From Salinicola halimionae (GTDB lineage: Bacteria; Pseudomonadota; Gammaproteobacteria; Pseudomonadales; Halomonadaceae), in NCBI RefSeq assembly GCF_003206065.1, contig NZ_PZJQ01000004.1, positions 308,864 to 372,863 on the forward strand: a stretch of DNA of 64,000 nucleotides. Reading direction: 5' to 3'. Positions 44,563-46,883 of the stretch are shown here, one piece after another; the stretch's first letter is position 1, and every line of letters begins with the position of its first letter. Made by a program: the position numbers and the translations under genes. The notes below the pieces were generated by a model. The model was not told the DNA's origin, ran no database searches, and saw nothing but the letters and a program-made list of their open reading frames with translations.

Positions 44563-44769
44563 ATGGAGCCCGAAGATCTGAAGAAATTGGTCACCCGAAA
44601 GATGCCTTTCGGCAAATATGAAGGTTGGCTGATCGCCGATCTTCCCGGGCCCTACCTCAACTGGTTTGCCCGGGAAGGCTTTCCCAACGGCGAAATCGGG
44701 CATCTGCTGGCGCTGATGCAGGAGATCGACCATAACGGACTGAGTCCATTGCTAGAGCCGCTGCGCTGA
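44563..44769 (+). CDS. DUF3820 family protein
   Basis: A 68-residue protein with the family core MPFGKYEGWLIADLPGPYLNWF, whose members have been described as putative quorum-sensing-regulated or exonuclease-associated factors. AGGAGG at 44553-44558 precedes the ATG. It stands alone between the BCCT operon and the J-domain pair; function not established. Confidence 0.88.
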   Translation: MEPEDLKKLVTRKMPFGKYEGWLIADLPGPYLNWFAREGFPNGEIGHLLALMQEIDHNGLSPLLEPLR

Positions 44770-44814: not shown

Positions 44815-45222
44815 CTAGCTCATCCAACGCCCCGCGAGATGCGCGGCGACCAACCCGATCACGATGACCAAGGCAAGCCAGCACCGGCGGCGCCAGCGCG
44901 TCTGATGGCGACCCAGCGCCATCTCCAGCTGCCGCGTCATCAGTTCCTGGCGAACCACGATGCGTTGTGGGGAGACGGAAAAGTCATTGGCGACGTCGCC
45001 TTGCCAGTGAGGTGCGTGAGTCATGCCCAGATTTGCTCGCAACCTGCCGAGTTCGTTCAGCACGCCATGCAGATCGTCATAGGCTTCGCGATGCACCGTG
45101 TTTCCAAGCGTACTTATCGCGTCGACCTTCAGCGTGCGATTGCCGCAGCGCTCTGCGGCCCGAATGATGGTGTCGGAAGTTGCGTTCTTGCTGACGCCGA
45201 GTCGGCGATAGAGATCTCGCAT
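44815..45222 (-). CDS. Tail-anchored J-like protein lacking HPD
   Basis: A 135-residue protein. Residues 3-55 read like a DnaJ domain: DLYRRLGVSKNAT at the start and HREAYDDLHGVL at the end fit helices I and IV, but the segment between is short and the HPD tripeptide that activates Hsp70 is missing. Residues 110-130 form a C-terminal hydrophobic helix (CWLALVIVIGLVAAHLAG), suggesting a tail anchor. The gene starts 20 bases after the HPD-containing J-protein gene on the same strand. No strong ribosome site is seen. Role unknown; possibly a membrane partner of its neighbour. Confidence 0.65.
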   Translation of the reverse strand: MRDLYRRLGVSKNATSDTIIRAAERCGNRTLKVDAISTLGNTVHREAYDDLHGVLNELGRLRANLGMTHAPHWQGDVANDFSVSPQRIVVRQELMTRQLEMALGRHQTRWRRRCWLALVIVIGLVAAHLAGRWMS

Positions 45223-45242
45223 AGCGTATCAGGCCGTCATCA

Positions 45243-46328
45243 TCAGGTAGTTGTCATCAGATAGTCGTAGGCATTCTTGATTCGCTGAAACCGCTGCGAG
45301 GCCAGCGAGACTCGTAGATCCCCCTGCCCGTGAAAGCGATCGGGATGATGGCGCTGCGCCAGTCGCCGATAGGCCCGCTTGATCTCGATCGATGAGGCGG
45401 GCTCGTCGAGTTCCAGAACCTGCAGCGCCAGACGGACTCGGTAATGGGTCTGAGGCCCCCCCGTTGCCTGCTGCCACTGTTGTCGACGCCACTGCTCCCG
45501 ACGATGAGCTTCTTCCTGGCGCGCTTGTTCCCGACGTTGTTCTTCGGCCTGGCGTTGCTGTTCCTGGCGCCTGGCATCCGCTTGGCGCGCCTGCTCCTGA
45601 CGCAGGCCTTCGGCCTGGCGTTCCCGCTCTTGCCGTTCTTCCTGCTGGCGTCGGCTTTTCGCCTGCTGACGCAAGCGGGTTCGTTCCAGGCGCATCCGAC
45701 GCCACCGCGCCTGGGCGGCATTGGTTTGAATCCACCAGCGCTGCCAGCGACGAGTCTTCAGCGGTCTCTGGTCGGTGGCTTTCCTGTTTCCTTCGGCTGC
45801 TGTCTCTTTCCCGGTCGCCGTCTCTTCTTCGGTTACTGTCTCGGCTCTCTCGTCTGGCTGCCAGTAGTCCTGCCGACTGGGATCGCCGGGTGGCATCAGC
45901 TGCCGGCCGGTCACTTCGCGAAACAGCAGAGCGAAGGCGCCGGGGGTGATGCCCGAAAGATCGGAGAGAAAGCGCAGAATATGGTGATTGCGCAAGCTTG
46001 GTTCGCCCTCGCTCGTAGCGAGTCCGATGGCGCGACGCAGAAAGGGGTGCGACTGCTCGTCGACGCGTTCGCGTAGCACTATTTCGGCGGCCAGTTGGAT
46101 GGCCGTCAGATCGGTTCTGGCGATCGCCGACAGCGTATCGAGATCGTCGGAATGGCGATAGCCGTTGGCCAGCGCTTCGAGATAATGCTGGTCCTCGGCG
46201 AGCGCAACGCGCTTGTTGACGTAGATCCACGTCAGCAGCAACAGGGACGCGGTATCCGGCGGGTAACGACTTTTCAGCAGCAGGAGCTCGAAAGCGGAAA
46301 AGCGCGCTGGGGCCATCGATGAATCCAA
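45243..46328 (-). CDS. J-domain protein with long Gln/Arg coiled coil
   Basis: A 361-residue protein. The N-terminal 165 residues are helical and may be TerB-like, as in DjlA. About residues 215-285 form a Gln/Arg/Glu-rich coiled coil (repeats of RQEQARQADAR type). The C-terminal 65 residues are a J-domain with LELDEPASSIEIKRAYRRLA and an intact HPD (RHHPDRF). It should recruit and stimulate DnaK. A second in-frame ATG at 46316 is an alternative start, preceded by GGAT. A long open frame in another register overlaps it but is low-complexity shadow. Confidence 0.75.
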   Translation of the reverse strand: MDSSMAPARFSAFELLLLKSRYPPDTASLLLLTWIYVNKRVALAEDQHYLEALANGYRHSDDLDTLSAIARTDLTAIQLAAEIVLRERVDEQSHPFLRRAIGLATSEGEPSLRNHHILRFLSDLSGITPGAFALLFREVTGRQLMPPGDPSRQDYWQPDERAETVTEEETATGKETAAEGNRKATDQRPLKTRRWQRWWIQTNAAQARWRRMRLERTRLRQQAKSRRQQEERQERERQAEGLRQEQARQADARRQEQQRQAEEQRREQARQEEAHRREQWRRQQWQQATGGPQTHYRVRLALQVLELDEPASSIEIKRAYRRLAQRHHPDRFHGQGDLRVSLASQRFQRIKNAYDYLMTTT

Positions 46329-46439: not shown

Positions 46440-46883
46440 CTACGTTGCCGCCATCCCCGAGGTCTTGCTCAGATTCTCCGGGCCGAAGGAGTCGGGCAGC
46501 AGTTCGTCCATGGTGTAGTGCTTGAGCGGAGCGCCGTTGCCATCGAGCACGACGATTTCGGTCTGCGGCGTGGCGAACTCACGGATGCGCTGTCGGCAGT
46601 CGCCGCAGGGCGTGCACAGATGCTCGCCGGGGCCGATGACGTAGATCTTGCGAATCTGCCGCTCGCCGCTGGAAACCAGCCCGGCGATCGCGCTGCCTTC
46701 GGCACACAAGCCCTTGTAGTTGGCACTCTCGACGTTACAGCCAACGTATTGCGTCCCGCTTTCACTGATCAGGACGGCCCCAACCGGGTGATCGGAGTAG
46801 GGTACGTAGGCGTTGTCACGCACGGCAAGCGCCGCCTGGCGGATCGAATCGGGTACGTCGCCTGAGGGCGTCATGGCGGTCAT
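46440..46883 (-). CDS. cdd: Cytidine deaminase
   Basis: A 147-residue homotetrameric-type enzyme that converts cytidine and deoxycytidine to uridine and deoxyuridine. The zinc site is seen as GLCAEGSAI (Cys and catalytic Glu) and PCGDCRQ (two Cys). It is the last gene of the leftward deoxynucleoside operon and its start overlaps the deoD stop by four bases. Confidence 0.95.

Follow-up and report, generated by a model that had tools for sequence, protein, structure and literature searches.

The window analyzed in this study, a 64,000-nucleotide stretch of the Salinicola halimionae genome, contains a tandem gene pair on the minus strand, referred to here as genes A and B (Table 1). Both open reading frames were confirmed, and B starts 20 bases after the A stop codon, in line with the original prediction of tandem J-domain genes. 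Gene A could alternatively start from a TTG at position 46328 (45243-46328, 361 aa); the ATG at 46316 is its most likely start because the Met of many relatives precedes an (A/G)RFS(A/P)FE-like motif, and the majority of relatives begin at this ATG position. The pair is bordered by a cytidine deaminase gene (46440-46883) on one side and by a small convergent gene (44563-44769) matching Pfam PF12843 (E 6e-30) on the other. The PF12843 label, carried by the gene that adjoins B, is putative quorum-sensing-regulated virulence factor. A promoter and terminator scan found none that would show A-B as one transcript. The closest named relative of B was that of S. salarius (79% identity).

Table 1. Features of the A-B gene pair, with coordinates in the window.
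Feature	Coordinates	Strand	Basis
Gene A, TerB-J protein, 357 aa from ATG 46316	45243..46316	-	ORF, Pfam DnaJ
TerB-like helical domain of A, residues 8-137	45906..46295	-	Pfam TerB at family level, structure model
Gln/Arg-rich linker of A	45432..45854	-	Sequence; median dN/dS 0.27
J domain of A, C-terminal, residues 299-355 of 357	45252..45422	-	Pfam DnaJ; median dN/dS 0.054
HPD motif of A	45339..45347	-	Sequence
A-B gap, 20 bases, A stop to B start	45223..45242	-	Sequence
Gene B, 135-aa J-like protein lacking HPD, hydrophobic helix at the C-terminus	44815..45222	-	ORF
B residues 1-58, J-like domain with deletion of the HPD loop	45049..45222	-	Profile matches, model, VIA
Conserved block LGxLRxxLG(L/M)THxxHWxxxxAxDFS of B, residues 59-82	44977..45048	-	Invariant columns
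Likely tail anchor of B, a hydrophobic helix at the C-terminus (residues ~113-131)	44830..44886	-	Model, hydropathy

The protein encoded by gene A had been described as ending in a J domain with HPD after a Gln/Arg stretch, and this was borne out by a Pfam DnaJ match (E about 5.3e-11 to 5.5e-11) containing the HPD motif. Pfam DnaJ matched four places in the source genome, A included. The HPD motif was kept in 53/53 A proteins of alignment A4, the members of which were picked for having HPD. Pfam TerB gave no match with the window's own A, and 23 of the 53 A members matched it at E<=0.1 (best 2.7e-7). A model of A residues 1-150 (42 sequences) was obtained with a pLDDT of 88.6 and a pTM of 0.85. 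VIA, in which Z values of ~7 to 8 may be no more than average for helical domains, ranked the tellurite resistance protein 2ou3 first for this TerB model (Z 8.1, rmsd 4.9 over 118), followed by 2h5n (Z 7.8, rmsd 4.8 over 115) and a third row at Z 5.1. The title of 2h5n states unknown function, and we take this protein to be TerB kin. Foldseek returned no match at E<=0.001 for either the A TerB model or the B model. Based on the Pfam TerB matches at the family level and the TerB-type VIA matches, A is read as a TerB-linker-J protein, with the domain order of DjlA and no membrane helix. This DjlA-like nature of A had been missed by the original prediction. Elsewhere in the source genome, a single protein (L003) matched both TerB (E 2.5e-13) and DnaJ (E 1.5e-11); it is the DjlA proper of this genome, and its N-terminus is hydrophobic by eye. 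The TerB profile of A aligned weakly with this genome's own DjlA (E 0.046, probability 1.2%).

Gene B was predicted to encode a J-like protein lacking HPD, and the family profile, the structure model, and VIA all agreed with that description. Alone, the B of the window matched Pfam DnaJ at E 0.054 over residues 3-22, a value under the cut-off that serves as a hint only. At the family level, 40 of 69 B members matched Pfam DnaJ at E<=1 (best 1.2e-4), and the next family was matched by 7. The B profile gave 27 matches at E<=10 to PDB sequences, and 27/27 were J-domain or DnaJ-named chains (best single E 0.021). In these alignments, helix I to helix IV of DnaJ were matched with B 16 residues shorter over the HPD loop (48 vs 64), and two motifs were aligned in order, namely D-Y-x-x-L-G-V-x-x-x-A-x-x-x-E-I-x-x-A and then A-x-x-V-L-x-x-x-x-x-R-x-x-Y-D. 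The positions invariant among the 69 B sequences (MxDLYxRL, A22, C26, L31, R45, Y48, L61, R62, L65, G66, W73, D80, and F81) form a pattern that matches the start of helices I/II and the end of helices III/IV of the J domain. When B was used as a single sequence, phmmer found three weak mandelate dehydrogenase hits and no J chain among PDB sequences; it was the family profile that resolved B.

The B model (mean pLDDT 82.1, pTM 0.56) consisted of helices at residues 4-8, 16-25, 29-39, and 42-64 and a long helix at residues 85-134. The best VIA match was the CbpA J domain, which covered residues 1-58 of B (rmsd 1.4 over 56 residues) at a Z of 7.2, again in the range that can be middling for helical domains. 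Rows 1-22 were all J-domain chains, and rank 23 (9grx_U) was not identified as a J chain. The best Foldseek E was 0.035. Among the matches listed, the structural matches of B by Foldseek and VIA were J domains. In addition, a B profile built from two lineages (see below) hit the source genome (E 2.6e-5) at one of the places matched by Pfam DnaJ. The possibility that the J-likeness of B arose by chance was rejected on the family Pfam matches, the PDB profile, the loop alignment, VIA, and the two-lineage profile, with no single PDB hit being significant. The absence of a J fold from the 135-residue protein had been named as one outcome that would speak against the original prediction; instead, the PDB profile, the model, and VIA were all of J type.

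HPD was absent from all 80 B relatives checked. The mean net charge was +3.9 over the 16 residues before HPD in A and -0.8 over residues 15-30 of B. B is without the HPD loop and without the basic part of helix II; because of these two features, B should not stimulate DnaK. A hydrophobic segment was defined as a 19-residue Kyte-Doolittle mean >=1.6 with <=1 charged residue. By this rule, the hydrophobic tail foreseen for B was found in 67/69 Halomonad B proteins, whereas 0/53 A proteins contained such a segment. Median dN/dS was calculated over five Salinicola sequences (10 pairs, or 8 pairs for the short B block). The J domain was the most constrained part of A (Table 1), the TerB part had a median of 0.16, and B had a median of 0.21, with 0.079 at residues 59-85 (8 pairs). 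By these ratios, both A and B are under purifying selection.

To describe the distribution of the pair, relatives of both proteins were searched in genomes of increasing taxonomic distance. B was present in 16/18 genomes of the genus and had relatives in 109/201 genomes of the family Halomonadaceae. Relatives of the TerB part of A were also found in 109/201 family genomes, and the two genome lists, compared by eye, were identical. In a set of named loci (80 kept of 84 confirmed), an HPD-containing J frame of >150 codons, with HPD near its end, lay directly upstream of B at 78/80 loci, HPD being required by the parse behind this count; the A-B gap at these 78 loci ranged from -17 to +192 bases. 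One of the two exceptions (L113) has an HPD J fragment upstream of B that was missed by the parse. In Salinicola tamaricis F01 (L044, 4814-6001), the TerB part is present, the A frame is broken, either by a sequencing error or by real decay, and the adjoining B is intact. Among the 78 loci, L114 has the TerB part of A split over two frames. L113 and L114 lie outside Halomonadaceae, and at both of these MAG loci A looks broken, short or split over frames. The two MAGs (L113:6001-6573 and L114:6001-6945) are labelled Candidatus Binatota and Gammaproteobacteria. Their B proteins run far past the membrane helix, to 191 aa at the contig end and to 314 aa, respectively.

Two genomes of the same genus lack the pair. 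In one of them (G008), the cytidine deaminase gene is 91 bases away from the PF12843-type gene (L194:1339-2221); A-B is therefore absent as a unit here, leaving an empty site. In the other (G007), the neighbourhood is rearranged and shows no clean empty site. In summary, A and B come and go together, which suggests from their genomic occurrence that they function as a single membrane-docked unit.

In wider samples, B was matched in 8/293 genomes of the order sample, all in the same family, and the Halomonad B profile matched 30/369 of the class sample at E<=0.01. Among the class-sample matches beyond the known family, L125 represented a second lineage and L126 looked unrelated; the remaining matches were judged by frame length only, and most were of DnaJ/CbpA size. 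A profile of the second-lineage B matched 7/369 genomes of the class sample, two of them in that lineage's order. The two-lineage B profile matched 273/398 genomes of the phylum sample; of the listed matches that ranked lower than those of Halomonadaceae, most were DnaJ-size frames, as judged by length. Because at most 12 to 14 first-look candidates were scored per genome, diverged B genes may be missed in these wide samples.

The gene neighbourhood pointed to no pathway. At the 80 named loci (L035-L114), a convergent gene of one cluster was found downstream of B in 59/80, and the one member tested, in L050, is a mechanosensitive channel; a second downstream cluster, of amidoligase type (amidoligase in L050), occurred at 45/80 loci. 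The surroundings of A-B differ between genera. This variation would fit an arrangement in which A and B are transcribed together and belong to one pathway without touching each other, B acting on another membrane protein. However, the all-or-none occurrence of the pair and the anchor swap described below are hard to explain without contact, and we consider this arrangement quite improbable.

The second lineage, reached through L125, belongs to another gammaproteobacterial order, in which 22/48 genomes have a B relative. The B proteins of the two lineages were homologous (hhalign probability 97, E 8.3e-11, 77 columns), as were the TerB-J proteins (hhalign 99.2, E 1.7e-19, 217 columns); TerB alone gave E 1.6e-10 between lineages, and an unrelated control pair gave E 0.52. 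At the 20 second-lineage loci, A was readable in 19 and B in 18, and most of the gene pairs overlap by 4 bases. The hydropathy rule gave the reverse of the Halomonad result, with a hydrophobic segment in 0/18 second-lineage B proteins and in 15/19 A pieces, which were limited to about 500 residues. Of the four pieces that failed, L144 passes on a longer stretch (L163), and 6/6 of the longer stretches have a hydrophobic segment upstream of TerB when the charge rule is not applied. From these counts, the membrane helix resides in one partner or the other, in B of Halomonadaceae and in A of the second lineage. This anchor swap is the best evidence, indirect in kind, that A and B work jointly at the membrane.

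In the same second-lineage proteins (L163-L168), a long, likely periplasmic N-terminal region precedes the membrane helix of the TerB-J protein and contains repeats of a Cys motif (about ...C...AYRxC). Three of these proteins gave a weak Pfam DnaJ match or none, and no other family. In L163 (6017-7912) and in the neighbours in L164-L167, the next gene after the pair is on the same strand and encodes hydrophobic helices; the L163 copy had no convincing Pfam match.

The HPD position is variable in the second lineage, being HPD in 6/19, HPE in 1/19, and degenerate in 12/19 A proteins. DnaK recruitment can therefore not be the common function there, and this decay leaves room for a reading in which pairing is a further role of the J and J-like domains. 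Taken further, the pair would form a TerB-centred membrane scaffold whose J and J-like domains mainly pair with each other, DnaK being optional. A B gene still follows in the lineage in which 12/19 TerB-J proteins are without HPD or HPE, and the homology between lineages spans TerB as well as J, as such a scaffold would predict. In contrast, Halomonadaceae have HPD at the 78 parsed loci (a parse that required HPD), and the J domain of A is strongly conserved. We consider the scaffold reading improbable.

The reading that we prefer, with confidence evenly balanced for and against, is that A and B form one membrane-docked co-chaperone in which B docks A and A recruits DnaK. The C-terminal helix would hold B in the inner membrane, the J-like domain of B would face the cytoplasm, and B would bind A. 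A combines a TerB-like domain with a predicted working J domain and is without an anchor of its own; it would thereby be placed at the membrane, where its J domain would bring and presumably stimulate DnaK. In addition, B may restrict the times at which the J domain of A is free. In effect, this would be a DjlA split into two chains, with a degenerate J domain providing the anchor in trans. The available text of PMC11709261 places E. coli DjlA in the cytoplasmic membrane with TerB between the helix and the J domain, and describes a soluble form that gives no Rcs activation and an inactive H233Q form. According to the same text, MalF membrane segments fused to DjlA restore Rcs activation, so the anchor is exchangeable. 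Based on these E. coli anchor data (PMC11709261), we propose that B gives A its membrane place.

Docking agrees with the identical genome lists (109/201), the 78/80 loci, the absence of the unit from G008, the anchor swap, the charge contrast, and purifying selection. A working pair, which the original prediction had considered conceivable, likewise fits the conservation of the pair, its absence as a unit from G008, and the anchor swap. Against docking, the co-occurrence of adjacent genes can arise from shared gain and loss alone. Further points against it are the loss of HPD in the second lineage, the 2/69 B proteins under the hydropathy threshold, the window's A without Pfam TerB, the weak alignment of the A TerB part with DjlA, the negative promoter/terminator scan, and the broken or short A at both MAG loci.

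Alternatively, B might mainly be an inhibitor that masks the J domain of A with its J-like domain or conserved block and so blocks DnaK until a membrane signal releases it. The order of the genes is that of cbpA and CbpM. According to PMC8215388, the CbpM gene lies downstream of cbpA within one operon, and CbpM binds the J domain of CbpA and shuts out DnaK. A Pam16-Pam18 pair with reduced stimulation is likewise described in PMC5773037, and the J domain of A is its most constrained part (dN/dS 0.054). However, the membrane helix and the anchor swap are not explained by inhibition alone, and B persists in the second lineage beside HPD-less J domains that need no restraint. In addition, yeast does not critically depend on Pam16 restraining Pam18, according to PMC13254874. 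Inhibition as the main role of B is rather unlikely in our judgment.

Returning to the docked co-chaperone, a broader and more tentative proposal, which we consider less likely than not, is that Gammaproteobacteria have a heterodimer of a J and an HPD-less J-like protein, independent of Pam18-Pam16, that holds a TerB-J protein at the membrane. Its anchor would have moved between the partners across lineages, and the J partner of one lineage would be losing HPD to become part of a DnaK-free J:J-like scaffold. The parts are of known kinds; among the matches listed, neither a description of this A-B gene pair nor the combination with an anchor swap was found in the literature. A 2026 review (PMC13254874) describes the Pam16-Pam18 tandem as still enigmatic in its mechanism and the function of pseudo-J-domain proteins without HPD as not elucidated. 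A bacterial two-gene pair with a natural anchor swap and a series of HPD losses would make the pseudo-J question testable, with non-essential genes, cultivable and harmless marine bacteria, and purified proteins. Such a pair would in addition illustrate how a DjlA-type co-chaperone can have its anchor moved to a separate subunit.

Compared with known systems, A resembles DjlA in its domain order, a TerB-like domain first and an HPD-containing J domain at the C-terminus, and in the involvement of the membrane. Unlike DjlA, A has no N-terminal membrane helix (0/53 pass the hydropathy rule), contains a long Gln/Arg linker, and is accompanied by B. The NCBIfam DjlA model scored only 50.7 bits against A (cut-off 162), over the J region alone (residues 265-358), and a separate TerB and J protein (L003) exists in the same genome. 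The pair also resembles Pam16/Tim16-Pam18/Tim14 of the mitochondrial import motor, in which an HPD-less J-like protein is paired with a J protein at a membrane. This analogy, drawn in the original prediction, is reasonable as a mode of action. The architecture differs, in that A is DjlA-like and the anchor is on the J-like partner B rather than on the J protein A. To our knowledge, Pam18 has no TerB domain. The Pam16 family was absent from the 25 listed of the 33 Pfam families touched by B members, and Pam16 was absent from the 27 PDB rows matched by the B profile. The HPD loop is deleted in B, whereas in Pam16 it is substituted, being DKE in yeast according to the text available from PMC13254874. 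Restraint of Pam18 by Pam16 is proposed in the accessible parts of PMC5773037 and PMC13254874. Like CbpM, B is small, and its gene comes right after that of a J protein, in the same orientation; the title of PMC4063869 places CbpM among relatives of transcriptional regulators, whereas B is itself J-like. Finally, B shares with type IV or pseudo-J-domain proteins a recognisable J domain without a working HPD, at the family level and weakly for the single B. It differs from them in that the loop is absent rather than replaced, in its predicted tail anchor, and in being encoded together with a fixed J partner.
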